Assembly: GCA_029204225.1 (NCBI GenBank)
Contig: CM055099.1
Location: 48,072,909-48,136,908, forward strand
Length of the DNA: 64,000 nt
Source of the DNA: Diphasiastrum complanatum
Taxonomy: Eukaryota; Streptophyta; Lycopodiopsida; Lycopodiales; Lycopodiaceae
Direction: 5' to 3'
The position numbers were made by a program, and so were the translations under genes. This document shows, piece by piece, positions 3,535-43,688 of the stretch. The notes under the pieces were generated by a model. It saw only the letters and a program-made list of their open reading frames with translations, did no database searches and had not been told where the DNA came from. The stretch's first letter is position 1. Each line of letters starts with the position of its first letter.

Positions 3535-3544
3535 AAAAATTTAA

Positions 3545-6200
3545 TGTCGTCACAGAACATGATCATTTTCCATTACCTTTCAGGGAATCCATCTTAGAAA
3601 ATCTAGCATGAGCTAAGGCCTACTCATTCTTAGATGGCTTTAGAGGCTACAATATGATTCAAATCACTAAGGAAGATCAACATAAAATCGCTTTTGTCAC
3701 AAAATGGAGAACCTTTTGTTAGAAAGTCATGCCCTTCGGTCTCTATAATGCCCCTAGCACTTTCCAGCGTGTTATGCAAGCTGCCTTTTCTCATTAGATG
3801 GGAGATACCCTAGAGGTTTACTTGGACGATCTAGGCGCACATTCAGAAGAAATATGTCATCTGTCTGTGCTACAAAAAAAATTATCCAATGTCAACACTT
3901 CGGAATCTCCTTGAACCTTGAAAAATGCCAGATCTGGATAACACATGGCATTGTGTTAGGGCATATCATTTCCAAAAATGGCATCACAACAGACCTTGAC
4001 AAGGTCTTGATCATTCAAAATCTGCCTGAACTACGCACTATCCGCAAGATCTATTCAGTCCTAGGTCACGCTAATTATTATCATTGCTTCATTCTCGATT
4101 TCACAAATAAACCACAATTGATTTATAAGATGGTCATTGTTCCTACATGGATTGATGAACAACGAGTCGCGTTCATTCAGTTGAAAGAAGCCCTCACCAA
4201 TGCACTTGTCCTCTAGGCTCCTGATTATTCCAAAGAATTTCATGTGCATACCAATGCATCCAAGTATGCCAGTGGGGCAGTGCTCACCCAACCGGGAGAA
4301 TTCAAAAAGAATTATCCAATCTGCTTCCTCGATAGACAATTGATTCCCATTGAAGTCAATTACACCACTACCGAGCGTGAAGCTTTGGCGATGGTGTATG
4401 TGGTTCAGAAGTTTCGCCATTATCTCCTGGGAAAAGTTTTTGTGCTCTTCACTAATCATCAAACACTCCTCTACTTCATCAATAAAACTTGCACAACTGG
4501 TCGCATTACTCGTTGGATCTTGTTGTTATGCGAGTTTGACTTTCGAATTGTTGCTAGAAGGGAGTTCAACATTTTTTAGCAGATCATCTATCCCGAATCC
4601 CTAATCTACCAACTCCAGAAACGATGATTTACCTAATGCCATTCTTTTCCAAGTTGACTATACCCCAGTTTGGGCCAAGGACGTTACTGAATATTTAACT
4701 TCAGGGCAGATGGATCCCTCCTTATCTAAACCCTATCTAAACTCGAACAACGTGCATTGGTCCTCAAAACAATACCTTATACGTAAATTGCAGGCCAACT
4801 TTATAAGCAAGGTTTAGATGGAATTATCTGACATTGTCTTACTGAAGGTGAAATAATCTCAGTTATATCCCTAACTAATGAAGGTGTTGGAGCTGGTCAT
4901 TTCTCTTCCAAAACGACCGCCAAAAAAATCCTCTTGGCAGGATTTTGGTGGCCAATTCTCTTTAAAGATACCCACATCTACCTAAAGGCATGTGATGTTT
5001 GTCAAAGATCAAAACACTTTCAAAAAATAGACTATATGCCTTTACACCCTGTCACGACTTATCAAGATTTTCAGAAATGGGAAATTGATTATGTTGGACC
5101 AATTAACCCGCTACGCGCAACTCCCAATCCAGATATATTGTCGTAGCTATAGACTACTGTACCAAATGGGCTGAAGCTAGAGCTATTTGCAATGCTGACA
5201 CTCGTTCTACCACAAAATTTCTCTATGAATAGGTTATCGTTCGTTTCAAATGTCCTCTAGAACTTATAAGCGATAGGGGCACTCATTCCCTTAACTTTGT
5301 CATACTAGATCTATTATTGAAATTTTTTGTGGTACATTGCAAGAGTTTCCCATATTATCCATGATGCAATGGCCAGGCGGAATCCACCAACAAAATCTTA
5401 TGTGGTGTTCTAACTAAAACCATCGAGTCCAGCCGATCCGATTGGGAACTAAAACTTCACGCTGCTCTATGGGCCCATCGCACAACCCCAAAAAGAGCCA
5501 CAGGTTTAACCCCTTTTCAGCTAGTATATGGCCAGGAGCCCGTCATGCCTATGGAATTCCATATTTTTTTCCTACGTGTAGCATATAATCTAGAGTTAGA
5601 TAATCGTCAGATTCTAGCTAATAGATTATTCCACCTGGAACAACTGTGTGAAATACGACGAATCAGCATCCATGCTCAACCAGTCCACAAACGTCGACAA
5701 AAGACATGGCATGATCGATCTTTAAAACTTAAAGAATTTCAGGTTGGAGACAAGGTCCTCTTATACCAAGCCAAAACATTCACGGGCAAACTGAAATTTT
5801 TCAACCAAGGACCTTATGTCATTCAAAAGATATTTTCCTCTGGATATGTCCAACTCCAAACCCTACAAGGCGATACCTCAGATATTGTGGTCAATGGAAG
5901 CAGACTCCAAAAGTACAATGAACATTGTTTTTATTTTGATATGTATTTTCTTTATTCTCTAAATTTTGCTATTTATTTTTTATTATTGCTTGCTTGCCAT
6001 TTTGATAAAAAATTTAATATGTTTTTGTTTAAAACATCAAGATATCATCAAATCAAGAATACAATCAGTCTTTTTCTATCCAACCACAAGATTCATTCTT
6101 TTTTATGCACAATCATACCAGATAGAATTCGCTCAGACCCATTTTTATTGTCCACGATTCATTTATTACCTCTGCAAATTCTAGCTCACAGTTAAACTTT
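3545..6200 (+). pseudogene. Gypsy-1 pol pseudogene (RT-RNase H-integrase)
   Basis: This is a decayed Ty3/gypsy pol. The RT palm begins near 3545 (the HFPLPF block), shows FLDGFRGYN and MPFGLYNAPSTFQ, and has the catalytic box as YLDD near 3820. It is broken by in-frame stops (for example near 3613, 3719 and 3795). RNase H follows (4216-4580: SKEFHVHTNASKYASG, then TEREALAMVY and FTNHQTL). The integrase H2C2 zinc region and WWP motif lie at 4880-5020, WEIDYVGP at about 5080, and YYPxCNGQAES at about 5360. A C-terminal GDKVLLY segment lies at about 5745. Several frames are used, so no functional enzyme can be made. It is clearly related to gypsy K and gypsy E in this window. Confidence 0.88.
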
Positions 6201-6437
6201 TCAGAAATAAAAAGAGACCAATTTTTTGTATCAAATCCTCACTGACAGAATTCGTAGATAATTCGTTGAGCCTCAAAATTAGTTGCACGATTTCTATGTA
6301 CCATTTGCAAACTTTGATCATACCAATTTTTGTATTGTCGAACAATTCCACTCATTTTTATACAAAAATCATTTACAGGAACTTGCCGGACCTCAAAACA
6401 TTGCCTTGAAATTTGCAAACCTCACTGGGAAATCGTG
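6201..6437 (+). other. Gypsy-1 3' untranslated tail, interrupted by copia I
   Basis: AT-rich sequence follows the integrase pseudogene and has no recognisable protein. It ends at the 5-bp target site TCGTG (6433-6437), where copia I inserted. The other side of the target resumes at 11231. Confidence 0.6.
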
Positions 6438-7049
6438 TGTTGAATTCACACGTGTGGGACGCCCTACACATGTTCTTTTGATCCTTTAAGCCCAATAATA
6501 CCATAAAGATCAAACTAGCATTGGTTGTCAATAGGAAAGTTGATCATACAAGAAATATTAGTGTTACAAGCAAGATCTGTCAACAAAACATAAGACTAAG
6601 CATAATAAATGCCTCAACTCGACTAGAGAGAGAAAATAGAAAGTACAAAACTCATGTAGAGAGAGAGGGCACAAAGAGCTTGTCTCCAAATTTGCATTAC
6701 ACACAAATTTCATCATTTTCTCAATGAGAGTACATCACATATATATAGATCCATGGACTCTCCTCCTCCTTTGAGTTGAATTGGAGTTGTGAATCCACCT
6801 CTCAAGCTATCTAGACTTATTCAAGCCACCTCACTATGTATAATTGTGCCACCTAGTCTTTTCATGCATTAAATGTGGCATGTAAAGTACAAATGGCAAT
6901 TCCTATGGTAGCTCGAGTTTCTACTTCTACCTACCTTGAATATTTTATTCTAAGATGGGTCTTTACTAAGCCAAAAGAGCTTAATTCATATTTGGCATTT
7001 TTAGGACCCCTACTCACAACATTAGATAGATTTTTCCAATATTTTGACA
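6438..7049 (-). repeat. 3' LTR of copia I
   Basis: On the plus strand this LTR begins TGTTGAATTC and ends ATTTTGACA. It is nearly identical to the 10617-11230 copy. A TATA-like run (ATATATATAG) lies at about 6739-6749, giving a minus-strand promoter candidate. The adjoining purine tract GGAGGAG (7050-7058, minus strand) marks the polypurine tract. Confidence 0.92.
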
Positions 7050-7067
7050 CTCCTCCTAAAAATGTAT

Positions 7068-9857
7068 CTAATGTGGATCAAGCATCGATCTTGAGATAAG
7101 ACCAAGATTAGACCTACGCTTTGAGAAGGCACTTTTGCAAAGTGGCTTTGTGAGAAGATCAGCAATACATAAAGATGTGTCGACATGTTCTAAGTTGATT
7201 TCACCTCCAATGAGCTTTTCTCTTACAAGATGGTGTGCCACTTCTATATGCTTGCTTCTTGCATGAAAAATAGGATTGTTTGCAAGAGCTTGTGCCGATA
7301 TGTTGTCACATTTGTCAAGGGAAGATCATCCTCTTTGATGCACTTTAGCTCCATGATTAGCCTCTTGATCCAAAGCACCTCTTTAGTTGTTGTAGTGAGT
7401 GCTTTGTACTCGGCCTCAGAAGATGATAGGGATATGGTATCTTGCTTCTTTGAAAGCCAAGGCACAAGATTGCCTCCAAGAAAGATAGTATATGCATTAA
7501 TGGACTTTCGATCCATTTTATCACTTGCAAAATCGGAATCCGAATAGCCAACAATGGTTAGATCTTCATTCTTGTACAATAAACCATAATCTTGAGTAGA
7601 AGATACATATCTTAGAACTCTCTTGGCCATCTTCCAATGTTGGATCTTGGGATCTTGCATAAATTGACTCAATTTGTGCACACAATAGCTTAAATCAGGT
7701 CTAGTGATAGTAAGCTAGATTAAAGAGCCTATAAGACTCCTATAAAGTGTGATGTCCTCGAAGGATCTTTCATCACCTTTAATAGGATCTTTTACATGTT
7801 GCTCCATGGGAGTATCTATGCCTTTACAATTTTGCATATTGAATTTTCTCAACATAGAAAAGACATATCTAGATTGACAAATAAAAGCATACTCTTCATG
7901 AAAATCAATCTCAAGGCCTAAAATGTAATGGATCTCTCCTAGATCTTGCATTTTAAATTCTTTTCCTAATGCATCTTTGGTTTCTTGAACTAGCATCAAA
8001 CAACTTCCACTAAGAATAATGTCATCTACATAGATTAGAAGAATGACAATATTACTACTATCAAACTTTAAGTACATAGAAAGATCATAGTCACTAAGCA
8101 CAAATCCTAATGAAAGTAGAAAGTTGTTGAGTCTTGAATACCATGATCTAGGTGCTTGCTTAAAGCCATAAAGACTTCTAAATAGCAAACACACCTTAGA
8201 TTTATCCTTGATAAATCCTTGAGGTTGTTCCATGTATATCTCCTCCTCAAGATAGTCATTCAAAAAAGTGTTGGAGACATCAAGTTGAAACAGTTTTCAC
8301 TTAAAAAATAAGGCAAGAGAGATTATGATTCTTATTGTCACCATCTTTGCTATAGGAGCAAAGGTTTCTTCATAGTCAAGGCCATATATTTGTGCAAAGC
8401 CTTTAGCACATAATCTTGCCTTGTACTTGTTGATGGAGCCATCATGATTGTACTTGATCTTGAACACCCACTTGCATCCAATGATGTGCATGTTAGGTAG
8501 TGGATTCACTAGCTCCCAGGTGTGGTTGGTGATCAAGGCATCATATTCAATCTTCATGGCCTCATACCACTCCTTGGTATTGAGGGCTTCTTGGACATCT
8601 TTGGGCTCCTCGTGAGAAACAAAATAAGCATAAGTGGAATCAAGATCCACTTGTTTTCCTTTGTCATCATAAGTGAGCCTCTTGGGCTCAGATCTCTCCC
8701 TCATGGATCTTCTAGGAGTGAAAATCCGAGGACTTCCATCTTCAAATCTTGACTCCTCCATATGTTGATTGTCTTCAATAACAAAAGGTGATAGATTTTG
8801 AGGTTGCTTGATCTCGGCCCCTCCAAGATTGGACTTTTCTTCTTCATGAAAAACTACATCTCTACTATCAATTACTTTAGAAGTAGAGAGCATGTAGATT
8901 CGATAGGCTTTCTTGTTGGATGAATATCCAACCATTACTCCTTTGCTTGCACAAGGATCATCCTTCTTTCTCATTTCCAAGGGAATATGGACAAAGCATA
9001 TGCATCCAAATAATCTAAGGTGATCAACCTTAGGTTTCTTCAAATAAAGTGCTTCATATGGTGACTTTCCTCCAAGTGCAACATGAGGGATCGATTGCAG
9101 AGATAGTTTGAACAATTGATGGCCTCACCCCAAAAGTCTTTTGGCAAGGATGCCTCAATTCTAATGGTTTTGGCACATTCACACAATGATGTTGATTCTT
9201 ACTTCTTGTCTTGTGCTTGTCTTTGGTAAAGAGAGCTTTACCATCAATGTTGAGAGACAGTCTCTCCATTTTCAAGAGCTTATACTCTTGTCTTGATTCT
9301 TCAGAAATGAGCACACTTTGGAGTGCTTCCAAACTTGGTAGCTCCTCCTTAATGGCATAACTCTGAACAAGGTTGTCATATTCCTCCTTTAACCCATTAA
9401 GTATGACTTGAACAAGTTCATTTTGGTTGATGGAGTCTCCTATGCATGACAATTCTGTATGGAGGTCTTTAACTCTCAGTACATAAGCTGAAGCACATTT
9501 ATCACTTCTCTGTACACTTTGAAAATTTTGGTTTCTTAGTGTTAGAAGTCTAGAAGTATTCTTTGCCTCATAGATGGACTTGAGAGTATCCCAAGCATCT
9601 TTGGCATTAGTACAAGCACCAATTTCTCTTAAGATGTCATTTGAGACATTCATCTTAATATAATGCAGAGCCATCCTAGCTCTCTTTTTGTACTTTGGAA
9701 TTTATTGAGGAATTTGTGGTTCTTCTTCAATGCCAAGTACAATATCCATCACATCTTGTAGTATTAAGACATATTCCATTCTAACCTTCCAAATTGAGTA
9801 ATTGGAGGTTGACAATCTTTCACTTGCTTCTAATAGAAAGACACCCATTGAAGTCAT
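7068..9857 (-). pseudogene. Copia I gag-pol pseudogene, gag fused to integrase C-terminus
   Basis: The minus-strand reading begins at an ATG at 9857 (MTSMGVFLLEASERL, aligning with the gag starts of A2 and J). UBN2-type gag runs to about 9200. A deletion near 9190-9205 then joins gag directly to the C-terminal part of integrase (KDFWGEA, then KSPYEALYLKKP), removing the CCHC knuckle, protease DSGA and the DDE catalytic core. RT follows (FAPIAKM, LYGFKQAPRSW, YVDD near 8020) and then RNase H (DSDFASD, SSSEAEYKAL), ending at the TAG at 7068-7070. Stops at about 9703, 8298 and 7716 and frame changes confirm that it is non-functional. Confidence 0.9.
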
Positions 9858-20415: not shown

Positions 20416-20865
20416 TGTTGGAAGTAAATCTTGTTTGCGTTGGCTAGATCTACTCACGAGGTGGTGTAGTATAGAGAGGATCGTCCACCTTTTAAGTTCC
20501 TACCAAAAGCTTCAAACAGAAATAGTTAACGAAAATGAATACACTAAGGCTTGCCCAACTAGTGCCCAAAACTAAAATGAAACTATCTAAAACAATAAGT
20601 AACCAATCCTTGCTAAGGCTTATCCAACTAGCAAGGTTTCTAAACTAGATCCTAAATGAACACCCACAAGGAAAATGGAATGATAGATTGCGGCTATCTA
20701 ATAATCAATCAATTAAATACATGCCACAATACAAACCGATGAGAAGGAGACAAGAGGAGCCCGAGCACCTTCCCTCAAGCTATGCACCTTCCCAAAGGGA
20801 ACACAAATGAAACAGAGAGATAGTCTCAAAAATAGAGAGCTTGATAGCTTAATCTCAAAAGTGTC
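20416..20865 (-). repeat. B1 5' LTR, first segment (left of transposon T)
   Basis: Begins TGTTGGAAGTA on the plus strand and aligns with the first ~475 bp of the B2 LTRs. It stops at TGTC (20862-20865), where transposon T is inserted. The LTR resumes at 28339. Confidence 0.88.
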
Positions 20866-20876
20866 AACACGATGAC
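20866..20876 (+). repeat. Left terminal inverted repeat of T
   Basis: AACACGATGAC, matching the right end (complement of 28324-28334) at 10 of 11 positions. Similarity beyond this is weak. Confidence 0.75.
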
Positions 20877-21167
20877 ATTTGTTTTGGGACTTTGACCTGA
20901 AAAAGAGTAATCTTTTTGGTGTTTTTTAATGGTCCTAGTTTTAGGCCAAAATCATGGATTTTTTCAATAAATCTCTAAATTTTGTTTTTAGAAAAAGCCA
21001 AAAAAATGCATATTCTAGATAAAGAACTACAAGTTTTTTGTTGCAAACTTCATAAAACCATCCTAATCACAAATAAAATAATAATTCAAGAGAACAAATG
21101 ATTTTTGAAACTTGAAATCCCATTGAAATACAAAATAACTTAAATTATATTTTCACATTCTTTTTTT
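20877..21167. other. T left subterminal non-coding region
   Basis: About 290 bp of AT-rich sequence between the inverted repeat and the end of the transposase gene. No motif was recognised. Confidence 0.5.
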
Positions 21168-23799
21168 TTAAAGTACATTTTCTAAGGAATTTTCATTGAT
21201 GCCTCTCAATTCAAAACTTGACATATTCTCGACACTCTCGTTTTCAGCTGATGAAGTGGAAGATCCGTCTTCTTCATTAGAGTCAACTGGCATGTCTTCC
21301 TCAGAATCCGCGTCTATTAGTTGTTGATGTATGTTCGAGATTGAGCAAACTGATTTTTTGTTCCTCGAAAAAGTCCATCCACCAATGCTGATCAAACTCA
21401 TCAAAAAAATGATAAGTTGTTTGAATACTTGATTCCAAAAAATTCAATGAGGCAAATGGATGAATCTCGTGATGCTCTCTTTGCACCTTTTGTTCTTCTA
21501 ACAAGGACTTCAAGAAAGACACCACAACAAGCTTGATTTGGGTTGATGGAATGTTAAGCAAAAATTGAACTCCTTCAAGAGGTGGCCACGAAACTGAATT
21601 TGAAAATAGTTTGCCCCATAATAATATAATGTTTGATTCGTTACATTTGATTTTAAACTGGTGCTGAAAGCTAATATCATTAATATTAGCTATGCATCGC
21701 TCTGTTTTGTTGGACGCCTTAACATAATCACGAAAATCATATGCGTGTCTGATTAATAACACGTTTGGCTTTGGCACATACGATTCCTCAACAATGCTTT
21801 GAAACACTGTAATAAAAATGCTTTTTTGCATCTTAACCTCTTAGAAAAGCAACTAAACATTTGATCAATTTGATCGTGGGTATGTCCTACCAACAAAAAT
21901 CCTATTTTTATTTTTTTGAAATTTTTTTTCTCCACTAGCATAGACAAGTATGCCAAAACAATTTGATTTTTATTTTTCCTAGCAATGTTGTCAAGCTGCA
22001 AATAAAGTATTTCTGGAAGATTTTCACCAAAGTCGCAAATTATCTTATGTACAATGGGGATCATCGAATTTGGATCATTTCGAACATTGGGATAATTAAA
22101 AAAGACTTTGGAATCCAAAATGCCATTAAACACAAGTGCTCCAACAAGATGAACCTGAATAAAATCTGCCTCATTCAAATTTTTGGACACTCTGACAAAT
22201 TGAGACAACATTGTTTTCTTCTGATCCATGCCATCAATAACAAGGCCCGAATATTTTTGTGGACATTCCAAACATTTTTTTCGATGTTTAGCCAACTTTT
22301 GTCTTTCAACTGTTTGTTGATCTCTGTGTAGTTGAAGAGATTTTGCAGCATCCATTGAAAATACAATGGTTCACTTCTTTGATAAAATAAAAATCATTCC
22401 ATAATGGTGTTAAAAAAGACTGCAATATAATGGTGTTCAAAAAGACTGCAACATAATTTTTTTTCAAAACAGAAAGTATTAAAATGAATGACAAATTTGA
22501 TTAATATTTATCTTTCTCATTATTGGTCTTTGCAAGTTGTTTAGCAAACTTTAACAACACGCAAGTGGAGCACACTATCATTCGTGATATTTTGGAAATC
22601 TTTACCAGTCTCTGTTCCAAACTCTAAGAAAATATGAGTAACTCAAATATGAAACATTTTTTGTTTTTGCAAACTCTTTTTACATCAAAAATATTTTTAA
22701 TTTTGTAAAATTATTCAGCAAGTGAAAATATAAGGAATTAGACAATTTTTCTCCGTGCACATCTATGAAATGCTTTAGCCAAGCAGTTGCATTTAAAGCA
22801 TTTGGAGAAACAATTCGACCATGTAAGAATCCCCGTAATGTTGGGTCTTTCTGAAGTCGTGCATGCATTCATTGAAGCCGTGAGTTTCCGATTGCGTGAA
22901 CCGCTTTGTAAGCTTTGCAACAAACCTCCAAAGCATTTAAAAAATATGAAAATGAGTTTTTGTCGGGCCTCACTGTTGCACACAAATAGTAATTTCTCTC
23001 ATCCTTACTTTGTAAAAAGAAGTTTGATCTTAATTCTTCAATTTCTCTGATACTCAGCTTTTGCAAACAATATGATGAGTAGCAAATAATATTTCGTACC
23101 TTTCGAATCTCAGATTTTGTAATCAATTGTTTTTGACGATTCGTTAAATCAGGTGAGGATCTCAAGTCTCTCTTGCATTTTATTTTTTGTTTGGAGTCTG
23201 ATCTATAAATTGAACCTGTGACACTAGTAGGTGCTTGAACTGGTTGAGAAGGTATTGGAATTTCATGACCCGAAATTCTGGCTCCAACCGCAGGATGTTC
23301 TGGACACTCAAAAGGTCTAAATTTTCAATGAATATAGCCCTTTTAGATTTAACACGACGAACATCACTTTGAGAAGGTCTCCTGCGAACATGAGAAAAGC
23401 TTGAATGTCGCAGATCAACAGACTTACACAAATCTGTTGATTTACTAGAGTCAGTAACTGAGTGAATTGAAGCTTTTGACTCATCACTCAATGATTCAAC
23501 TTGTTCAAAAGAACAATGTTCTGATTGTGTTGAGCCTGTATCTAAAGAGGAGGACGAGGTTGAAAGATTTGATACAAGTTGAGTTACAGGTGTCATTTCT
23601 TGAAAAGTACTTACTTGAGAAATTTTAGAAGATGAACGGGTAAATGATGATGATGCCACATCATTTACGAAACCATGTTCAGATTCAGGAGTGGCTTTAT
23701 AAAAAAGCTTTCATTGGGAATGTCAGATAAAGATGTTGCACTTGTTGCAACATATTGAGTTACAACTACTGGAATAGAAGAGGTAGAACTACTTGACAT
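21168..23799 (-). pseudogene. DUF7869-like transposase gene of T (decayed)
   Basis: Minus strand, start ATG at 23799 (MSSSSTSSIP). The N-terminus is Ser-rich and low-complexity. Next comes RQKQLITKSEIRKVRNIIC, then VCCKAYKAVHAIGNSRL and HGRIVSPNALNATAWLKHFI, typical of the N-terminal part of this family. The core (22355 to about 21840) contains VIDGMDQKKTML, LPEILYLQLDNIARKNKNQI and VGHTHDQIDQMFSCFSKRL; the Asp residues in VIDGMD, LQLDN and THDQID are candidate RNase H-fold catalytic positions. The C-terminal HAYDFRDYV and an acidic tail end at 21168. An intron probably lies at 22370-22680. Breaks: frame changes near 23703, 23200, 21835 and 21352 and an in-frame TGA at about 22877. Recognition of DUF7869 is by pattern, not by search. 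Confidence 0.75.
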
Positions 23800-23977
23800 C
23801 GTAACCTTAAAATTTTTTTGACCTACGTACTTATGCTAAGCATAGACCCGTTGAAATAGTTAACACCACGGCTTGTTTTATTAAAGTTTTCAGTATTTTC
23901 ATTAAGCTAGTATTTTAAATTTTTTTAACAAGTCTTTTTTTTTTGCAGATTTTCAATTGTCTTTGATAATTTTTGAA

Positions 23978-26900
23978 ATGTCGAGGATTTCTTTTAAGAT
24001 TTCGGAAAAACCTCAAAATATTTCCTTGAAAGATAAGAAAAAAGTCATGGACTACTATAACAAAGGGGTCAACAACACAAAGCTTTCAGAGCTTTTTATT
24101 CATTTAGTTGAGAAGCTTGGTAGGGGAGACTCACAATTCAAAGTTCAAGGAAGATTGCTTGCTGATCAACCAGATGAGGATCAGGAAGAAAGTTTTGTGA
24201 ATGTACTTGTAAAGGAGACGGATAAGTCTCGTTCTATTTTCATTCTGAACGAGACTATGATAAAGATCCGACTTTGCCAAGATGAGGCCTCCAAAGCCTA
24301 TTTTGATAAAACTCTAGTTACTTTGGTATGTAATTATAAAACATATTTTTATTCATATTTGTTTCATGCTTAGCATAGTTGTTACTAAATTTAAAATTCT
24401 TTAAACTTTTAGATAAAAGCCTTTACTCATTATATATTAAACTTGATTTTTGTTTCTGTCCAGAGCATGAAGCAATGCCTAAAAATGGTTCGAGCTGCTA
24501 TTGCTGAGGGGAAGGATCCGGTCTATTCATTACAGAGTTCAAAAGGTGTATCTATTGGACCTCGCAAGCCCGCTTCTACCACTGCTCAGGTCACAAATCC
24601 AACCTCTGAAAATGTTGAGGATGAAATTGTAGTTGTCCCTCATCCCAAAAAAAAAAGAGATCTCATAATATTTCTGAGTCTTCTCCCACTAGACCTAAGT
24701 CACACCCAAAGACCATGGCTACACATCGCCATAAGTCCATTCCGTCTACTGAGAGCAAAAAAGCTGTCACTGAACCATCTATGTCGCTACATAGTGCCTC
24801 CATCCGTCCTTTACAAGACAGCTCTGAACTTGCCAAATTAAGAGAAGATATTCATAAAACAAAAAAAATAAAAGAAACAACTTAGATTTTAGACATAAAT
24901 CACTGTGATAGGCCACTTGTAGACCCATTAACAGGTGACAGGCCAATGGAAGTTAGAGAACCGAATGAAACACATGTACATAATTTAAAAATAAAATTTA
25001 AAGATCATATGCAGGTCATAGTTACTCCTTTTGTTGTTCTAGTTGATCCCAACGAATGCAATGATGTTGCAAATTTTGATTTTTCTTTATTAGATTCATA
25101 TCATTTTTTTTGTTCTTGGGGGCATTCACAGTTTACAAGTCCGAAAACAATTATCTCAAGAGTATCCCCATATTCCAAGCTTTCGAACTGTGAGTGCCAT
25201 TGGCCTAATAGTGGAAGAAGCGAAATTATTGACTTGGGACCACAATATTGATGAGGACTACCAGATGAAGATGACCGTGATACAAAGAATACGATTTTTT
25301 CACAAAGAATACATGAGAGTCTCCAAAGCAGGAGATGTAAATCAACTTGAGTTGAAAGCACTCTGTGCTCAAGAGACAGGCCTGTCTTTTGATTCAAAAA
25401 ATCTTACGCAGAGCCTTACAAAATACGATAATTTTTTTCAGCTTGTTTTTCGCAGTGGCCAGGTAATTTGTTTTGCTATGCTCGTCATGGAATGCTCTGG
25501 TCATAATATATGTTGTAATCCTTTTAAATTGTTTTTATTAGACTAAAATTTTGAACTCAATTTTAATATTCCCTAAGTTCCTTATCAAATAATTTTTTTA
25601 TATTTCAGGTGTGGGCCGTAGTTGATAAAAATTTTGAAAATTAAGAAACCTTTCAAATTAAAGGCCAACCTACTTAGGGTGCTTCAAAGTCAAAAAAAAA
25701 AAAAAAAAAGTTGTGAGCACTCAAACTCTGAAACCAATTCTAATAGAAATGAGAATATCAGAGTGGAAGAACATGCAAGGGATTAGCTCTTCAGAACTAT
25801 TAATAAGTGTTCTTTCTAGAGTTGCCGATGATCAACTTTCTCTTGTAGAAATGGGACAAGAATTTCAGAGGTAATAGTCATAATCTAAATATTTATTTTT
25901 TTGTTACATTTTGTAATAAAGTGATTTTCATAATTTGGTTGGATTTTTAACAATTATATTTTTTGAATGCATGTACAAATTATTTATAAAAGTTCAAGAA
26001 GCCCTTGTGACATGGTTAAATTGTCAAGATTTTGATGAGTGCCATAGGCTTTATCCTCTGAACAACCAAAATGAATCCTTGAGTCCATTTCTGATTTTGT
26101 TTAGAGACATGGTATTTAGTTCACCCATGCTTAGATAGGTACTTATTAATTGCTTCTTTTCTATATTCTATGTCTCTTATGCTAATTAATTATTATTTTT
26201 TGATAAGTTAAGTCTCCTATTCTATTTTATATTTTTTGTCTCCCATGCTAAGCATAGCTTTTTCTTTTTCAGTCTCCCGAAGACAAGAAAAACAAAGTCC
26301 TTCCAGAGCAATTCAAGAGACATATTTTAAAGGCAAAAGCAGAAAAAAGAGAAAGGGAGAGATTGGCATGGGGTGAGACCATTGCGGAGGAGGATCCATT
26401 AAAGATCTACCTTCCTAAAAGTGTCGATGATCAATCATGCTTTTACTCGGTTGAGGAGGGTGATTGTAGAGAAATTTCAATTTTTTTAAATAAAAAAGAC
26501 CTTATACACTCTGCATCGCCGATATACCATATGGATTTCAGATGAAGAAATCATTAAATGATGATTCCTTTTTTAAATTCATTGAAATCCGTAGTTTTAT
26601 GCAGGGCTTTCTTGAAGTCACAACTTCTCCAATTTGGAGAGTTGTTATTTTTCATTCTTCTTGGCAGTCAGCATCAGTATAGAAAGATACTAATTTGATT
26701 CTACTAATTTTCCGTAATGTGGGAATAGAGAATGCTGTGTGGTAAGTTTTTAAGTTCCTGAAATATTAATTCATATTTTAATTCATATTTTTATTTTAAA
26801 TTTTTCATTTTAAAGTTAAAATTTTAAGCTTATTTTACTTGTAATGTTCCATGTCATGTACAAGCCCAATGTCAGGAACTCGGGAGGATCTTGACTTTTC

Positions 26901-27514
26901 AATGAAATAGAATACATAACCATCGGTTATTATTCTTTGGATGACAAACGTTCGATGCTTTATTACAACACTTCAGGACTGACAAGTTTTGGAAACTTGT
27001 TCTAGTATCCAGCCGTGACAAAGAAATTAAAGAATCCAATGACGGGTTTCGTGGCTTGTCCCTACCAAAAGCCACAACAATAAGTTAATCATTTAATTGA
27101 TATTTTTTCTCACCCAGCTGATTGGATTTTAAATTTATTTAGCGGTAGCGACACTACGAGCGCATGTGTTGTTCAGAAAGGCAGACATGTTGCTGTAGTA
27201 GATTTAGATACTAATTTAGTTGATTTTGTAAAATGAGAATGAAATCTCTTTCAGTTTTGCCAGATGAACTGTCTGAGGTGGGAAAGAGTTTAGATAGTGA
27301 GGATACAATAATTCCCTTGTCCAAGGAACCTCAACTCCTACTAGTGGAAAAGTAGGCGACACAGGAGAATTTGCTTATGTCTTGGTTCAAGATTACAATG
27401 TAATAACGACAGTCGAGAAAATTGTAGAAAAGGTGCCACTTGAAAGTACATTGGCTACTCAAGAAAAAAACAAATAAAAAAGATGTAAATGACCTCGATG
27501 ATTTTTGGGAATAA
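23978..27514 (+). pseudogene. ParB-like / N6-N4 DNA methyltransferase gene of T (decayed)
   Basis: Plus strand, ATG at 23978 (MSRISFKISEKP). Intron 1 (24326-24463, GT-AG) and the next (25463-25608) keep frame exactly; further introns are likely at about 25871-25990, 26112-26272 and 26742-26850. After a charged region, DPNECNDVANFDFSLL is followed, after a frame change in a T run near 25105, by FFVLGGIHSLQVRKQL and LLTWDHNID, a ParB/sulfiredoxin-type fold pattern (GGxH box). The methylase part starts at about 26450: VEEGDCREI, then DLIHSASPIYHMDF (motif IV, SPIY for SPPY/DPPY), then NEIEYITIGYY, QKP near 27080, and WILNLFSGSDTT with GRHVAVVDLD near 27124-27215 (motif I, FxGSGTT). The order IV to I is that of beta-class N4/N6 methylases. 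An acidic tail ends DLDDFWE at 27514. Stops and frameshifts make it a pseudogene. Confidence 0.78.
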
Positions 27515-28323
27515 AATTTTTTTTTTGTTTTAAAAAATAATTGCGTTTATTTTTTTTTATTGTATTGTGTTTTGACTTCTTTTTAATCAATTCAATGTTC
27601 TTAAATTTGTTTTTTAACGATTTACAATTAAGAATTTGAAATATTTTGAAAATTTTAACATTGATAAAAATTACCAATAATTAAAATTGTAACGATTTGT
27701 CAAATTTACAATATTTTAATTTTAGATGTGTTTTTATAATATTTTTTGTAAAAAAAAATATTGTTAAAAATTTTAAGAAATAAAAAGATTTTTTAGATTT
27801 TTTTCAGGGTGATTTAAATATTTTCACAGATTATTTAATCTCGATTATTGTAAATTAATTTTATTTGCATTTATTTAATGTTTAAATATTTATAAACTTA
27901 CGTGGGTATAAGTAAAGATTTTCAAAATCTAAAATTTTAAAAAATATTGATTCAATTTTTTAACACAATTTAAAAAATATTTTTTTCGATACAAGAATTA
28001 TAATTTAAAAAACTTTTAAAATTCCAAAAAAAAAACTATAACTTTTGTTTTAAGTAAGCAAAAAATATTTTTTAGGTATTTTAGTGGTTGTGTATCTAAT
28101 GATTTTATTTTAAATAGTATTATTATTTAATGTAACCTAATTTTAATCTATTTATGAAAATCTATTGACCAAATTTTTGTAGCTTGAATTATTTCTTGCA
28201 AAATACAACATTTTTTTAACATTACAATATATTTATTTGAAGCATTTTAAATTTGGATACTTTTTTAAAAAAAATTAAAAAATTGAAAAAAAATGGGTCT
28301 CCAAGTCATTTCTCTTTTTTTTC
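27515..28323. other. T right subterminal AT-rich region
   Basis: About 800 bp of very AT-rich sequence without open frames, between the methyltransferase gene end and the right inverted repeat. Homopolymer runs are frequent. No regulatory site can be named. Confidence 0.55.
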
Positions 28324-28334
28324 GTCATCATGTT
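28324..28334 (-). repeat. Right terminal inverted repeat of T
   Basis: Plus strand GTCATCATGTT, the inverted partner of 20866-20876. It is directly followed by the duplicated target TGTC (28335-28338). Confidence 0.75.
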
Positions 28335-28338
28335 TGTC

Positions 28339-30960: not shown

Positions 30961-31805
30961 TGTTGGAAGTATTTCTAGTTATGTGGTGGCTAGGTCAACT
31001 TACAGATGCAGTATAGGGATGTAAAGGTTTGTCCACTTCTTAAGTTTCTACAAGCTTTCTAGCAAAATGAAAACATCAACGAAATGGAGCACTAAGGCTT
31101 CCCAACTAGTGCTCGGAAATAAATGGGGTGGCTAAGGCGGTACCCAACTAGCCACTTACTTAAGAAATACAAAGTCTTGCTAAAGCTTCCCAACGAGCAA
31201 GAAGATTAATCTAAAATCTACTTAACATCCAAAGGGTAATAAAATGAGATTAAACATAGAACCAATAAAATGCATACCACAATACAAACCAATGAGGAGG
31301 AGTCAAGAGGAGGCCCGAGCACCTTCCCTCAAGCTATGCACCTTCCCAAGGGAAACACAAATGAAATAGAATGATAATCTCAAAAATAGAGAAGCATAAT
31401 AAGCTTAATCTCAAAAATGTCGTTCACAAGAAAAATGCCTCTCTTCTTATAGCAAGAAGGGCCTTCCATAGATATCCACTAACTTATGGGATTAGTTTAA
31501 AACTAGCCATTCTAAGACTCCTAAACTTCCAACTTAGAACTTAGAACTTTAAAAAGTTTCTAACTTGGGATTTAAAATAACTTAAGATATCTTAGAATAT
31601 TTCTAAGCTTAAGTTTCTTAAGTCTAAGTTCTAATCCTAAGTTTAAGTTATTTTATTATTTTAAGCTTCTACCCATGGACTTACAAAACACATGCCATAG
31701 CAGAAGTTTATTGACAAATACTCATACCTGGGCTTACAATACACATGCCACGGAGTTTTATTTCTTTTTTTATATTTTTTTACTGTGTTTGCATAGTGGC
31801 TAACA
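30961..31805 (-). repeat. B2 3' LTR (845 bp)
   Basis: Plus strand begins TGTTGGAAGT and ends GTGGCTAACA (TGTT/AACA ends). The 5' flanking pentamer is GTCAT; its partner cannot be checked because the 5' LTR is truncated. Aligns with both halves of the B1 LTR and with 43134-43688. Confidence 0.9.
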
Positions 31806-34754: not shown

Positions 34755-35396
34755 TGTGAAAAACTCAGATCCAAAAGATGCTAAAGTTTCATAAAGATCT
34801 TGGCCATGGAAGTTATGCACATCTAGATTGAAAAAATGATAGAAATTGTGATGTTAAGCATACTAAACATCAAAATCTGATCATAAGCTTCCACAAACAG
34901 AAACTTGCTGTCCCTGTCCGTACTTCAGAGCCTACAACCTGCATTTCACACGTGTGAAGCCATAGCAACAAAGAAATCACAATTCTAGTGGCTAGAATGC
35001 AAGATATGAACAAAAAAGTGAGAGAGAAGAAGATGGACCTTCAAAGAGCATAACATTCATTCAATAGAATGAAAATGAGATGTGTACATACTCGTGGAGA
35101 TGGCTATTTATAGCAGCCATAGTGCCTCTTGGCCACTTGTCTTATGATAGGCTAAAATTGGGGTCCAATAGGATTCACCCATATACCTAGAAATTTGGTC
35201 AAATAGGAATGCACCAAATTATGAGCCAATAGAAGAGCTCCACACTCGACCTCCTCTAATTAATGTGACCTCAAAAGTAGTGTACACATACTTTGGGCCT
35301 CTACATACATGTATGAACCTATCTCTAACTTTTATTTGGCCATAGGCCTACAAAATCTCAAGTTAGGAAAATACTACTAGTTGACAATTTTTCACA
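34755..35396 (-). repeat. 3' LTR of copia A2 (642 bp)
   Basis: Ends are TGTGAAAAA and TTTTTCACA. It has one copy of the 11-bp unit CTAAACATCAA where the other LTR has two. A TATA-like CTATTTATAG (complement CTATAAATAG) lies at 35104-35113. Confidence 0.95.
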
Positions 35397-38300
35397 CTCC
35401 CTCTTCAACTAGTTTTAGCATAGATTTAGAAAGTACACCAAGACTTGTTCTATGCTTGAAAAATAAGTCCTTTCCCAATGCTTTGGTAAAGATATCAGCC
35501 ACACATTCCTTTGATGGGACATGTTCAAGCTTGATCTCTTTTGCCAACACTTGTTCTCTCACAAAATGGTAAGCCACCTCGATATGTTTGCTCCTTGCAT
35601 GGAAAACCGGATTGCTTGCTAGACTTTGGGCTGAAAGGTTGTCACAAAAGATGATTGGACTCTCTGAAAAATCCAGCAAATGAAGCTCCATAATCATCCT
35701 CTTGATCCACACCATCTCCTTTGTGCATGATGTCAAAGCTTTGTACTCGGCCTCACTAGAAGAAAGTGATATAGTTGCTTGTTTCTTCGACATCCATGAG
35801 ATAGCTCCATCACCTATGAAAATAGCATGTGCATTTATGGATTTTCTATCCATAAGGTCTCCTGCAAAATCTGAATCTGAAAAACCAAATAAGTTAGGTG
35901 ATGAGCCTCTATAAACAATGCCAAAATCTTTTGTTCCCGAGATGTATCTCAAGATCCTCTTTCCTAGTTTCCAATGTTCTATGCTAGGATCTTGCATGAA
36001 TTGGCTTAATCTACCAACACAATAAGATAAATCAGGTCTTGTGATGGTTAGATATATAAGAGAACCTATTAGCTTCCTATAGAGAGTAATGTCCTCGAAG
36101 GATCTTTCATTACCTCTTATAGTTAGCTTTACATGTGATTCCATAGGTGTATCAATAGGATTTGCATCTACCATATGAAATCTATTGAGAATAGAAATAG
36201 CATACTTCTCTTGTGAAATAAAAGTGATTTGAGAAGTTCTAATTACTTCTATTCCTAAGATATAGCTCAAAAGACCAAGATCATGCACTTCAAATTCCTT
36301 TTTTAGTGCTTTCTTGATATCTTCTATATCTTCCTTGTTCCCTCCACTTAAAATAATGTCATCCACATAAATTAGAAGGATTGTAACATCATTAGCACTA
36401 ATTCTAAAGTAAAGTGAATGATCATACTCACTCATAGTGAAGTTTTGAGAAAGTAGAAAAGAGTTAAGCCTAGCATACCAACTCCTTGGTGCTTGCTTAA
36501 GACCATACAAACTTTTTTGTAGAAAACACACATGATTAGGCTTGCTATGAGAAACATAGCTCTCGGGTTGCTCCATGTAGACTTCCTCTTCAAGATCACC
36601 ATTCAAGAAAGCATTAGAAATGTCTAATTGCCAAAGATCCCATCCATAAAGAGTTGCAAGGGAAATGATTACTCTTATGCTCACCATCTTTGCCACGGGT
36701 GCAAAGGTTTCCTCATAGTCAATGCCATGCTCTTGAGCATAACCTTTAGCCACCAACCTTGCCTTCAACTTGTTGATAGATCCATCTTGATTTGTCTTTA
36801 CCTTGAAGATCCATTTGCATCCAATTGCACTTTTGCCCTTTGGAAGCTCCACCAATCTCCATGTGTTGTTCTTCATAAGTGCTTCAAACTCAAGATCCAT
36901 TGCTTGGATCCATTCCTCTTCTTGCCTTGCTTCATCTACACATGAAGGTACATCAAAAGAAGTTAGGAAAGCATAGTTGGATCCATCCACCACTTGCTTA
37001 CCTTTGTCATCATAAGTGAGCCTTGAGGGTTTCACTTTATGCCTTGGAGTTCTCCTTGGAATTTGACTTGAAGAGGCTTCTTCAACATCCACATCCAATG
37101 TGTCATCAACTCCATTGTCATCAAGCACATTAGTTGCAACAACACCATCATCACTTGAAACAACTTTTGGAATGTTATTTTCATCAAAAATGACATCCCT
37201 ACTTGTGAACACTTTCTTGATTGAAGGAACATAAATCCTATATGCTTTGCTTACTTCACTATAACCAACAAAAATGCCCTTTCTTGAAGATGGATCCTCC
37301 TTAGTTCTATCATCAAGAGTAATGTTGAAGTAGCAAATGCATCCAAAAGTTCTTAGAAACTTGACATTAGGCTTCGTACCAAACAAAGCTTCAAAAGGGG
37401 TTTTTCCTTCCAATACAACACTTGGCCATCTATTGCATAGGAAATTTGCACACAACAAAGCATCACTCCAAAAAGGTTTAGGAAGATTAGCATTCAATCT
37501 CATTGCCTTTGCACTCTCACACAAGGTTCTATTCTTCCTCTCGGCCACTCCATTTTGTTGTGGTGTTCTTGGACATGTGTACTCCCTCTTGATCCCATGC
37601 TCATCGCAAAAGGCTTTGAATTTGTTAGAAATGTATTCACCACCATTGTCGCTCCTCAAGCATTTGATTTTGGTTGTAAATTGAGTCTCAATAGCAACTT
37701 TGAACTTGACAAACACATCAAACACCTCATCCTTGCTCTTTAGTAGATAAACCCAACAAAATCTACTAAAATCATCAATGAAAGTTACATACATCTTAGC
37801 ACCTCCATTGCTAATTGTAGTAACACCATGAATATCCGAATGCAAGAGAGAAAAAGGCATCTTAGATCTAGATATAGATCTAGTATATGGCAATCTATGT
37901 GATTTAGACAAAGCACATTCTTCACAAACATGATTCAAGCAAGTAAGAGACTTGGGAAGTCCCCTTACTACCTCCTTTTTGGCTATTACCTCCAAGGCCT
38001 TGTAGTTGAGATGTCCCATCCTTTTATGCCATACCTCTTGAATTGACATTTGTTCATTTGCCATGCATCCAACTTGGTTAGCAACAACACATGCATCAAG
38101 CTTGAACAATTTCCCTTGCCTTTTCCCTTTTGCAATGATACTACACCCCTTTTTGATCAAGCAAGCATCACCATCAAACTCAACTTTGAATCCTTTGTCA
38201 AGCATTTGGCTTACACTAAGTAAGTTCTTGGTAATGGATGGAATGAGCAAAACATCTTTCAATTCTATATTCCTATTTGTAGAAAGTGAAATAGGAATTG

Positions 38301-39342
38301 TGCCAATCCCCTTGATTGCACACTCACCATCATTTGCGGTATAGATTACCTTCCTATCACCATCAAATGCCATTAAAGATGAAAAATACTCTTTATGATA
38401 TGTCATATGAGAAGTGGCTCCACTATCAATCCACCAAGGATCAATGTCTCCATGATTAGCCAACAAGCAAGATGACATAACAAAAGCATCATTTGAAAGA
38501 AGCTCATCCCCACCCTCATCAATAGTTAGATTGGTTTGCTTTTCCCCTTGATCCCTCTTTTTCTTAAAACAATCACTAGCAAAATGCCCTTTGACTCCAC
38601 AATAGAAACATTTTAGCTTAGATCTATCCTTCTTTTTGCCAAAAGTAGAGTGCTCACCTTGGTCTTGCCCTTTAGACCAATTGCTTTTACCTTTGCCCTT
38701 GAACTTGCCTTTAGAGAACATTGCCTCCTCTTCTCCTCCTTGAGATGTAGAAGATGCTCCCACTCTTGCTTGCAACCTGAATTCTTCAGCCAACAAGACC
38801 TCTTGCAAGTCTCCAACACTTGGTAAACATTTTTGGATAGCATAACTTTGAACAAGATTAGCATGATCATCCAACAAGCCATTGAGAATCACTTGAACAA
38901 GCTCCTCATTATTTATGCCATCATTAATGCATGCTAACTCATCATTCAATGCTTTAACTCTCAAAACAAAAGCATGTCCATTCTCACTCTTCTTTTGCAT
39001 ACAAGAAAAGATTTGCCTTCTTAAAGTCAACACTCTAGAAGTAGACTTGGATTCATAAACCTTCTTCAAGGCTTCCCAAGCTTCACTAGATGATGTGCAC
39101 TTACCAACCTCTTTGATAAGCTCATTTGTCACATTCATCTTGATCATGTGAAGGGCTTTCTTTGCCCTCTTGTCATACCTCAATTGTTCTTGAGGTGCCA
39201 AAGGTCTCTCCTCCACACCTACAACAATATCCATCAACTCATTCATCTCAAGCAAAGACTCCATCCTTACTTTCCAAGTAGAATAGTTGAGGGAGGTAAG
39301 CCTATCATTGCTTTCCAACATGTAGCCTCCATTTGTAGCCAT
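35392..39342 (-). CDS. Copia A2 gag-pol polyprotein, intact (1316 aa)
   Basis: A single ORF with ATG at 39342 (MATNGGYMLESND), about 600 bp after the primer site, typical copia length. Domains by residue: UBN2 gag (about 15-190); CCHC knuckle CFYCGVKGHFASDC (245-258); aspartic protease WWIDSGATSHM with catalytic DSG at 306-308; integrase zinc site (H439, H444, C473, C476); integrase catalytic core with D503 (HSDIHG), D565 (RSDNGGEY) and E601 (VAERKNRT); RVT_2 RT from about 815 with YVDD at 992-995; RNase H with DSDFAGD, SSSEAEYKAL and ADIFTKAL. All key residues are present. The polyprotein would self-cleave in cytoplasmic particles and then reverse transcribe and integrate the element. The TGA stop lies within the first bases of the 3' LTR. 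Confidence 0.97.
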   Translation of the reverse strand: MATNGGYMLESNDRLTSLNYSTWKVRMESLLEMNELMDIVVGVEERPLAPQEQLRYDKRAKKALHMIKMNVTNELIKEVGKCTSSSEAWEALKKVYESKSTSRVLTLRRQIFSCMQKKSENGHAFVLRVKALNDELACINDGINNEELVQVILNGLLDDHANLVQSYAIQKCLPSVGDLQEVLLAEEFRLQARVGASSTSQGGEEEAMFSKGKFKGKGKSNWSKGQDQGEHSTFGKKKDRSKLKCFYCGVKGHFASDCFKKKRDQGEKQTNLTIDEGGDELLSNDAFVMSSCLLANHGDIDPWWIDSGATSHMTYHKEYFSSLMAFDGDRKVIYTANDGECAIKGIGTIPISLSTNRNIELKDVLLIPSITKNLLSVSQMLDKGFKVEFDGDACLIKKGCSIIAKGKRQGKLFKLDACVVANQVGCMANEQMSIQEVWHKRMGHLNYKALEVIAKKEVVRGLPKSLTCLNHVCEECALSKSHRLPYTRSISRSKMPFSLLHSDIHGVTTISNGGAKMYVTFIDDFSRFCWVYLLKSKDEVFDVFVKFKVAIETQFTTKIKCLRSDNGGEYISNKFKAFCDEHGIKREYTCPRTPQQNGVAERKNRTLCESAKAMRLNANLPKPFWSDALLCANFLCNRWPSVVLEGKTPFEALFGTKPNVKFLRTFGCICYFNITLDDRTKEDPSSRKGIFVGYSEVSKAYRIYVPSIKKVFTSRDVIFDENNIPKVVSSDDGVVATNVLDDNGVDDTLDVDVEEASSSQIPRRTPRHKVKPSRLTYDDKGKQVVDGSNYAFLTSFDVPSCVDEARQEEEWIQAMDLEFEALMKNNTWRLVELPKGKSAIGCKWIFKVKTNQDGSINKLKARLVAKGYAQEHGIDYEETFAPVAKMVSIRVIISLATLYGWDLWQLDISNAFLNGDLEEEVYMEQPESYVSHSKPNHVCFLQKSLYGLKQAPRSWYARLNSFLLSQNFTMSEYDHSLYFRISANDVTILLIYVDDIILSGGNKEDIEDIKKALKKEFEVHDLGLLSYILGIEVIRTSQITFISQEKYAISILNRFHMVDANPIDTPMESHVKLTIRGNERSFEDITLYRKLIGSLIYLTITRPDLSYCVGRLSQFMQDPSIEHWKLGKRILRYISGTKDFGIVYRGSSPNLFGFSDSDFAGDLMDRKSINAHAIFIGDGAISWMSKKQATISLSSSEAEYKALTSCTKEMVWIKRMIMELHLLDFSESPIIFCDNLSAQSLASNPVFHARSKHIEVAYHFVREQVLAKEIKLEHVPSKECVADIFTKALGKDLFFKHRTSLGVLSKSMLKLVEEGV

Positions 39343-39939
39343 GTTGCAATGATTGATCTCTGATCTTTGACCTGTTCCAATGCACTAAGCACTCTCTTGA
39401 ATCAACAAATGAAACACAAGAAGAAATCACAAAGATTTGGAACCTAAAACCTTACTTTTTCTCTCTTTTCCTCACTTTTTCCTTAATTTTAGCCACTAGT
39501 TTTATGATTTCTTGATCAAACCAAGACCAAACCTCAATATACTTGCTTTTCCCTCACTCATAAGATTGAAATACACTCTTGAATCATTCAGCAAACTGAA
39601 AATCAGAGGGTTACATCAATTTTGAAGTTTTTGACATGAAGAAGCAAGAAATTGAATCAAAAAACTATATGCTAGAATGGAAAACTAATAGGATCTTGTT
39701 GGATCTTGCATCTCCCTCTTTCCAAAACAATTTTTGTCTCCTTATTCTGATAAGTACAGAGGGAATTCGCCCTACTTCAATTGAAATGCATACAAATGAT
39801 GTTTTGATCACAAAGATCCAATTTCTACACATAAATCAACAAGATTTTTAGCTAGAAACTTGATTGGAATGCTACAAAAGCAAACTCGCCCACAAATCTC
39901 TTCTAAATCTGGCAAAACCTGCACATTTGGCCGCCTAAT
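39343..39939 (-). other. Copia A2 5' leader
   Basis: Untranslated region of about 600 bp between primer site and gag ATG. No competing long frame in the sense direction. Confidence 0.7.
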
Positions 39940-39951: not shown

Positions 39952-40604
39952 TGTGAAAAACTCAGATCCAAAAGATGCTAAAGTTTCATAAAGATCTTGG
40001 CCATGGAAGTTATGCACATCTAGATTGAAAAAATGATAGAAATTGTGATGTTAAGCATACTAAACATCAACTAAACATCAAAATCTGATCATAAGCTTCC
40101 ACAAACAGAAACTTGCTGTCCCTGTCCGTACTTCAGAGCCTACAACCTGCATTTCACACGTGTGAAGCCATAGCAACAAAGAAATCACAATTCTAGTGGC
40201 TAGAATGCAAGATATGAACAAAAAAGTGAGAGAGAAGAAGATGGACCTTCAAAGAGCATAACATTCATTCAATAGAATGAAAATGAGATGTGTACATACT
40301 CGTGGAGATGGCTATTTATAGCAGCCATAGTGCCTCTTGGCCACTTGTCTTATGATAGGCTAAAATTGGGGTCCAATAGGATTCACCCATATACCTAGAA
40401 ATTTGGTCAAATAGGAATGCACCAAATTATGAGCCAATAGAAGAGCTCCACACTCGACCTCCTCTAATTAATGTGACCTCAAAAGTAGTGTACACATACT
40501 TTGGGCCTCTACATACATGTATGAACCTATCTCTAACTTTTATTTGGCCATAGGCCTACAAAATCTCAAGTTAGGAAAATACTACTAGTTGACAATTTTT
40601 CACA
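39952..40604 (-). repeat. 5' LTR of copia A2 (653 bp)
   Basis: TGTGAAAAA/TTTTTCACA ends, with two tandem copies of an 11-bp unit at about 40060-40081. The TATA-like element at 40312-40321 would drive minus-strand transcription of the element. Confidence 0.95.
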
Positions 40605-43133: not shown

Positions 43134-43688
43134 TGTTGGAAGTATTTCTAGTTATGCGGTGGCTAGATCAACTTACGAATGTAGTATAGGGATGTAGAGG
43201 TTCGTCCACTTCTTAAGTTTCTACAAGCTTCCTATCAAAATGAAAACATCAATGAAATGGAGCACTAAGGCTTCCCAACTAGTGCTAAAAAATAAATGGG
43301 GTGACTAAGGCGGTACCCAACTAGCCACTTACTTAAGGTGGTACCCAACTAGCCACTTACTTAAGGCGGTACCCAACTAGCCACTTACTTAAGAAATACA
43401 AAGTCTTGCTAAGGCTTCCCAACTAGCAAGAAGATTAATCTAAATTCTATTTAACACCCAAATGGTAATAAAATGAGATTGCGGCTAATACTAAATATAG
43501 AACCAATAAAGTGCATGCCGCAATACAAACCAATGAGAAGGAGGCAAGAGGAGGTCTGAGCACCTTTCCTCAAGCTATGCACCTTCCCAAGGGGAACACA
43601 AATGAAATAGAATGATAATCTTAAAAATAGAGAAGCATAATAAGCTTAATCTCAACGTGTCGTTTACAAGGAAAATGCCTCTCTTCTT
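43134..43688 (-). repeat. B2 5' LTR, truncated by gypsy E
   Basis: Begins TGTTGGAAGTATT on the plus strand, is homologous to the first ~480 bp of the 3' LTR, then stops at 43688 where the gypsy E LTR terminus begins. It contains a 28-bp unit three times in tandem (43310-43393) that the 3' LTR holds once. Confidence 0.87.
43310..43393 (+). repeat. 28-bp tandem triplication in B2 5' LTR
   Basis: Three nearly identical 28-bp units, each with GGTACCCAACTAGCCACTTA. The partner LTR has a single copy at about 31138-31165, so the expansion happened after insertion or during reverse transcription. Confidence 0.9.

Follow-up and report, generated by a model that had tools for sequence, protein, structure and literature searches.

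A decayed copy of a clubmoss DNA transposon family with divergent DUF7869 and ParB-like methylase genes

The transposon described in this study lies at positions 20866-28334 (7,469 bp) of a 64,000-nucleotide stretch of the Diphasiastrum complanatum genome, which is referred to here as the window (contig CM055099.1; C8:48072909-48136908 in the genome that was searched). It is a dead copy of a family of cut-and-paste DNA transposons with two divergent genes, and both genes are disrupted in the window by stops and frameshifts. The minus-strand gene belongs to the DUF7869 family and is read as the transposase, and the plus-strand gene encodes a DNA methylase behind a region that resembles ParB. 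The explanation that is narrowly favored for this dead two-gene transposon is that the ParB-like part would bind an array of palindromes and the methylase would mark the element, for self-labelling, tuning of expression or protection. The features of the element and its insertion site are as follows.

20862-20865, no strand: left target-site duplication (TSD) TGTC; single copy in the empty-site paralogues
20866-20876, plus: left terminal inverted repeat (TIR) AACACGATGAC; exact in 9/20 fetched copies
21304-21840, minus: 3' part of the transposase, out of frame with the upstream exon; from homologues
21831-22370, minus: transposase exon with the DUF7869 core (VIDGMDQKK, YLQLDN, VGHTHDQIDQMFS); PF25273 150.2 bits, 44 homologues at E <= 0.001
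22504-22581, minus: transposase exon piece (VCSTCVLL); from sibling copies
22737-23303, minus: transposase N-terminal exon with one stop; from sibling copies
23833-23843, no strand: palindrome ATGCTAAGCAT between the two genes
23978-24325, plus: ParB-methylase first exon; from sibling copies
24366-24376, no strand: palindrome ATGCTTAGCAT in a predicted intron
24464-25101, plus: ParB-methylase second exon, split by a frameshift into 24464-24655 and 24661-25101, where the ParB-like region begins; from P0001-P0004
25097-25462, plus: ParB-like region with the GGIHS box; from identity to P0001-P0004 and hhalign
25609-26111, plus: middle exons, pieces 25609-25671, 25707-25871 and 25980-26111; from sibling copies
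26245-26255, no strand: palindrome ATGCTAAGCAT in a predicted intron
26273-26742, plus: methylase exon in two pieces, 26273-26494 and 26509-26742, bearing motif IV (ADIPYGFQ)
26859-27227, plus: methylase exon with motif I NLFSGSDTT and three internal stops; PF01555 36.3 bits
28324-28334, minus: right terminal inverted repeat; exact in 6/20 fetched copies
28335-28338, no strand: right target-site duplication TGTC; compared with the empty-site paralogues
30961-31712, plus: paralogous repeat with an empty target site; from joined-flank alignment
43405-43668, plus: second paralogous repeat across an empty target site; from joined-flank alignment

The insert ends in inverted 11-bp termini with one mismatch, AACACGATGAC at 20866-20876 and GTCATCATGTT at 28324-28334, the latter pairing with the former when read inverted as AACATGATGAC. 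Such termini and a duplication were rejected as proof of an element by themselves, as the window holds 66 pairs of 11-bp TIRs (at most one mismatch) with a 4-bp TSD at spacings of 3-12 kb. What establishes the insertion and its TSD is that paralogues within the window run across the junction and contain TGTC only once. The flanks of the insert are part of a repeat that has further copies inside the window, and once joined they align through the junction to 30961-31712 and 43405-43668, each of which has one TGTC; the second of these repeats extends just eight bases past the junction. The empty-site paralogues and other copies bear out the sequence-only reading of this DNA, which had proposed a 7469-bp insert with inverted ends, a TGTC duplication and two divergent genes.

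The genome searched comprised 1.74 Gb in 5,176 contigs, and a transposase-exon query gave 4,007 first-look candidates, with 150 scored and 151 matches reported; these fall at megabase positions along contigs C1 to C23. For the copy analysis, 20 stretches were fetched around copies picked from this match list. A divergent ParB-methylase gene adjoins the transposase in 11 of these 20 loci (L021, L022, L023, L027, L029, L030, L031, L033, L036, L037 and L039), in some only in part: L023 and L039 have the later part alone, L033 the first part alone, and L027 and L031 lack the last exon. L026 holds a short inverted fragment of the gene, and no ParB-methylase gene was found in 7 of the 20 loci, one of which (L035) is half N. 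The left end is exact in nine copies, with one more showing a single mismatch, and the right end is exact in six. Both ends were found in three copies, and in all three the 4-bp flanks are identical (L021 TGTC, L023 ATAC, L029 AGTG). In the aligned end rows, homology begins at the AACA end and the flanks differ, except in L021, whose flanks are 99% identical to those of the window because the site was copied in a segmental duplication. Counting L021 and the window as one, both ends are known for three independent insertions. The same TIRs thus occur with different 4-bp TSDs (TGTC, ATAC and AGTG) at independent sites, as expected of cut-and-paste transposition. Copies with the same ends and 4-bp duplications, which had been suggested as a check, therefore exist, and the divergent pair in 11/20 loci together with the shared ends upholds the claim that the two genes lie within the ends of one element. 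As a separate observation, L038:6035-9278 contains a ParB-methylase gene that is inverted relative to a nearby transposase copy.

The assignment of the minus-strand gene to the DUF7869 family, first made by recognition of its motifs, was confirmed by a Pfam match to PF25273 at 150.2 bits (E 6.6e-44) against a gathering score of 26. In 45 aligned rows, D506 is invariant and D384 and D464 are conserved in at least 90%; these three are candidates for the acidic triad of DDE/D transposases with an RNase H-like fold. One Adiantum nelumboides gene model (P0010) has an integrase-type domain (PF00665) joined to DUF7869, and probably represents two neighbouring elements fused in annotation.

The methylase identity of the plus-strand gene was likewise confirmed. 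The window exon 26859-27227, with X at its three stops, scores 36.3 bits against N6_N4_Mtase (PF01555; cut-off 26.7), and the three sibling copies scanned of the eight assembled score 46.6 (L022), 40.1 (L021, the window duplicate) and 35.8 bits (L037) against the same cut-off. Motif IV (ADIPYG) stands ahead of motif I, which reads DLFSGSGTT in some sibling copies, and this order, together with PF01555 scores above cut-off in the window, siblings and relatives, agrees with the beta-class core that had been recognised beforehand. Searches of PHROGs gave only weak methylase rows, at E 0.14 or worse. The region upstream aligns over 328-398 aa to four proteins from public contigs (P0001-P0004), with close to 40% identity for P0001, P0003 and P0004 (roughly 330 aa) and 36% for P0002 (398 aa). 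It is called ParB-like here for its resemblance in motifs and their order, and also following the wording used for an Ectocarpus protein discussed below. An hhalign comparison with eight ParB-type sequences gave 93 co-linear columns (P 0.0058, HH probability 6%), and the methylase control gave P 0.35. Further upstream, around residues 65-170 of P0001, is a region conserved among P0001-P0004 that is modelled mostly as beta strands at very low confidence and is possibly a further domain. A D. complanatum gene model has a last exon matching the window methylase exon at 28/34 residues (counted by eye). In P0049, a D. complanatum protein that bears an ion-channel domain (PF07885), the final stretch derives from the transposon family described here, a junction that is probably an annotation artefact or exonisation.

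A scan of genome contigs detected nine relatives (L051-L059), all from one metagenome-assembled genome (MAG), CAKZGI01, labelled uncultured Trichormus. Trichormus azollae is the cyanobacterial partner of the fern Azolla. Because of this label and because the genes have predicted introns, the nine contigs are probably misbinned Azolla DNA, and the eukaryotic transposons on them probably derive from the host fern. Five of the nine (L051, L052, L054, L057 and L058) have a DUF7869 gene divergent to the ParB-methylase, and their five transposase matches are free of stops. In the other four, the ParB match begins 156-657 bp from the contig start, too near to show a transposase. L051 is a complete element (698-8421, 7,724 bp) that begins AACACG and has the TSD TGTT on both sides. 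The relative methylases pass the PF01555 cut-off of 26.7 at 52.0 bits (L051) and 56.4 bits (L056, joined across a stop). Their motif I reads DLFSGTG with a predicted intron before GTT, and in most relatives the ParB-like box reads GGSHSAEAR. The best solved-structure match of the methylase is the adenine methylase CcrM (1.9e-8), followed by DpnA (1.8e-4). Four scans of viral contigs yielded no relatives, and Foldseek gave no match at E 0.001.

The relatives allowed a selection test, in which uncorrected ratios of nonsynonymous to synonymous differences (pN/pS) were calculated among copies, excluding L059 as decayed. Values were 0.09 for the ParB core (8 copies, 158 codons), 0.18 for the wider ParB region (8 copies, 476 codons), 0.14 for the motif IV exon (8 copies, 154 codons), 0.09 for the motif I exon (6 copies, 98 codons) and 0.19 for the transposase (5 copies, 320 codons), and reading the same letters in shifted frames gave 1.30-3.31. 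L056 has three stops in the wider ParB region and one in the motif IV exon, and the other tested copies have none. In the fern-like relatives, constraint on the methylase gene thus roughly equals or exceeds that on the transposase gene.

The two groups also share a palindrome. Clubmoss copies contain palindromes like ACCTATGCTNAGCATAGGT, three of them in the window element, and the relatives contain arrays of GGAAGTCGATGC-N3-GCATCGACTTCC, which lie between the genes in L051, L052, L054 and L058, the four with both genes and arrays. When dyads of the form 4+3+4 were ranked with low-complexity arms excluded, ATGC-N3-GCAT was the commonest in both pools, with 100 occurrences in clubmoss (next 33) and 26 in the relatives (next 7). 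The 56.5 kb of the window outside the element has no ATGC-N3-GCAT, where shuffles average 1.07. Excluding the duplicate L021, the dyad was counted in 10 clubmoss loci where a methylase gene is divergent to the transposase, giving 13, 4, 7, 9, 5, 11, 8, 13, 10 and 2 against shuffle means of 0.07-0.20, and in 8 loci without one, giving 0, 0, 3, 0, 0, 1, 1 and 0. The locus with three is L026, which also holds the inverted methylase fragment, and L038, outside this count, holds six of the form ATGCTWAGCAT. In nine clubmoss loci, 55 of 80 dyads in the gene span lie between the genes and 6 of 80 inside tblastn matches, a count that extends as far as the matches reach, with a transposase query that lacks the first part and tblastn matches that can bridge introns. 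The relatives have 4, 10, 4, 4, 0, 2, 0, 2 and 0 dyads, whose symmetry stays at 77-100% for eight bases outward from the core in both directions. These data suggest that ATGC-N3-GCAT may be the target of the ParB-methylase. Dyads often lie some 41 or 51-54 bp apart, and helical phasing was considered; no such claim is made because the copies are related by descent and because distinct spacings gave R values of 0.44 (17 spacings) and 0.78 (8 spacings). Some dyads at L054:4040-4450 have altered arms (GATACCTGGTATC) yet are symmetric, as if target and binder drift together.

The function proposed from these observations is that the ParB-like part would bind palindromes with the core ATGC-N3-GCAT clustered between the two genes; the clubmoss arrays also lie within the methylase gene, outside the coding matches. 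The methylase part would then methylate on or near the array, the product probably being N6-methyladenine, and the mark or the bound protein would identify the element as self and adjust the transcription of its two genes, or shield it from host silencing. The sequence-only reading had already raised self-marking, an idea that purifying selection in the relatives and the shared palindromic array support and that we still infer from sequence.

Several results weigh against this proposal. The GGIHS box that was originally named as ParB is present in the sequence, but no ParB match for its region was found in Pfam, NCBIfam or PDB sequences. With trimmed cores, hhalign gave P 0.04 and 0.036, with HH probabilities of 1-6% across alignments, and the structure model of the ParB-like region was unusable (pLDDT 36). 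In the solved-structure match list, rows at E 9.5e-4 and above include unrelated antibody chains, and because of this the weaker methylase matches carry little weight. Three of the nine relatives (L055, L057 and L059) lack ATGC-N3-GCAT, and L057 is one that has both genes. Symmetry around the clubmoss dyads is 68% at the first outer base and 22-43% from the fourth on. L058 has recognisable ends, yet its 4-bp flanks differ (by eye). Finally, median pN/pS in clubmoss was 0.50-0.65 over five gene parts. However, shifted frames gave similar values, and for this reason the clubmoss test was dropped as saying nothing either way; the outcome is as expected of old dead copies.

Other explanations can account for parts of the data. 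The array could be a transposase binding site or a promoter element, with the ParB-methylase acting elsewhere, for example on host chromatin. The array is placed between divergent genes, where promoter elements are expected, and nothing links it to one protein, but transposase sites are usually near the ends of an element and these dyads are internal. This explanation appears fairly unlikely. Three copies with an exact left end in which no methylase was found also speak against it: the dyad is absent from L028 and L040 and occurs once in L035 (the half-N locus), though the region may be deleted there. It is unlikely that the methylase instead counters host silencing, with a mark that keeps cytosine methylation or small-RNA silencing off the element and no need for a specific array. 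The high copy number, judged from the 4007 first-look transposase-exon candidates (150 scored), and the constraint on the methylase in the relatives both fit this idea, which leaves unexplained why the same dyad was kept in both groups.

The commonness of one dyad also bears on a quite improbable alternative, in which the dyads have nothing to do with the ParB protein and instead fold back into RNA or DNA hairpins, whether as a regulatory RNA, a source of siRNA or palindromic repeats nested in the element. The near-perfect dyads of the relatives could indeed form hairpins, and some arms change with symmetry kept, but a hairpin alone would not require two distant element groups to have ATGC-N3-GCAT as their commonest dyad. 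It is hardly credible that the methylase gene was captured as a passenger and plays no role. In nine of the 20 fetched loci the transposase lacks a divergent methylase gene alongside, as would suit a passenger, but pN/pS in the relatives is 0.09-0.18 with no stops in the tested parts except in L056, and the same divergent pair is found in two distant element groups. A broader form of the favored explanation, namely parS-like marking by a transposon in plant nuclei, is possible and is offered tentatively. A ParB-like adenine methylase would recognise the iteron array ATGC-N3-GCAT of its own element and would have been kept by selection in clubmoss and fern elements since before these lineages split, or would have moved between them. 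This would amount to sequence-specific adenine methylation of selfish origin in land plants.

Transposons that carry a ParB-methylase are already known as a kind because one has been published for a brown algal Sola1 element. In Sola1-1_Ec32 of Ectocarpus, a gene on the strand opposite the transposase encodes ParB-like and N4C/N6A methylase domains, and its authors propose that the protein binds and marks the sequence of its own element (PMC12477816). The same source, as far as its accessible text goes, states that transposons of green and red algae carry similar proteins, and cites a description of giant red algal EnSpm elements that carry accessory genes (Bostrychia, Petroll 2025); the transposase class of the red algal elements may differ from that of the DUF7869 element. 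The clubmoss transposon is like Sola1-1_Ec32 in being a DNA transposon with a ParB-like methylase gene opposite the transposase strand, and unlike it in size (7.5 kb versus 21.5 kb) and host (a vascular plant versus a brown alga). The accessible text on Sola1-1_Ec32 reports no selection test or target motif. The question raised at the outset, whether this arrangement has been described, is thus answered in part: the kind is known from a brown alga, but no vascular-plant case was found in the titles and abstracts searched, whose coverage is partial and does not establish absence from print. DUF7869 was not found in the literature searched. The Sola1 superfamily is characterised by a 4-bp TSD, and a TSD of this type is seen in the window element, the sibling copies and L051, and not in the relative L058. 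The 4-bp duplication and the shared accessory gene make membership in Sola1 plausible.

Compared with bacterial and phage ParB-domain proteins, the ParB-like region has the same order of ParB boxes in hhalign, a likeness below significance, and differs in the conserved box GGSHSAEAR of most relatives. DNA modification methylase is the annotation given to some phage genes that have a ParB-type match. Four phage methylase genes that were retrieved are 239-266 codons long and carry no ParB annotation. The methylase resembles the beta-class enzymes CcrM, DpnA, MboIIA and RsrI in having motif IV ahead of motif I, in PF01555 and in its best solved matches, and differs from them in its motif IV DIPYG, its predicted introns and its fusion behind a ParB-like and a further N-terminal region. 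Other eukaryotic elements carry methylases as well, such as the cytosine methylases of retrotransposons and the adenine methylases of DIRS elements. The clubmoss transposon is like these in being a selfish element with its own modification enzyme, and unlike them in element class and methylase family. What this study adds to the known algal kind is a vascular-plant lineage, a selection test and a palindrome. The arrangement extends to what looks like two vascular-plant groups, and a concrete palindromic candidate target shared between them makes the idea that the element methylates itself testable.

A second element lies in the same window. An uninterrupted Copia-type polyprotein frame of 1,330 aa at 35392-39384 is flanked by near-identical repeats at 34755-35396 and 39952-40604 (98.3%), and is apparently that of a young long terminal repeat (LTR) retrotransposon. 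Positions 1-2196 of the window are a 99.3% inverted copy of part of that element.

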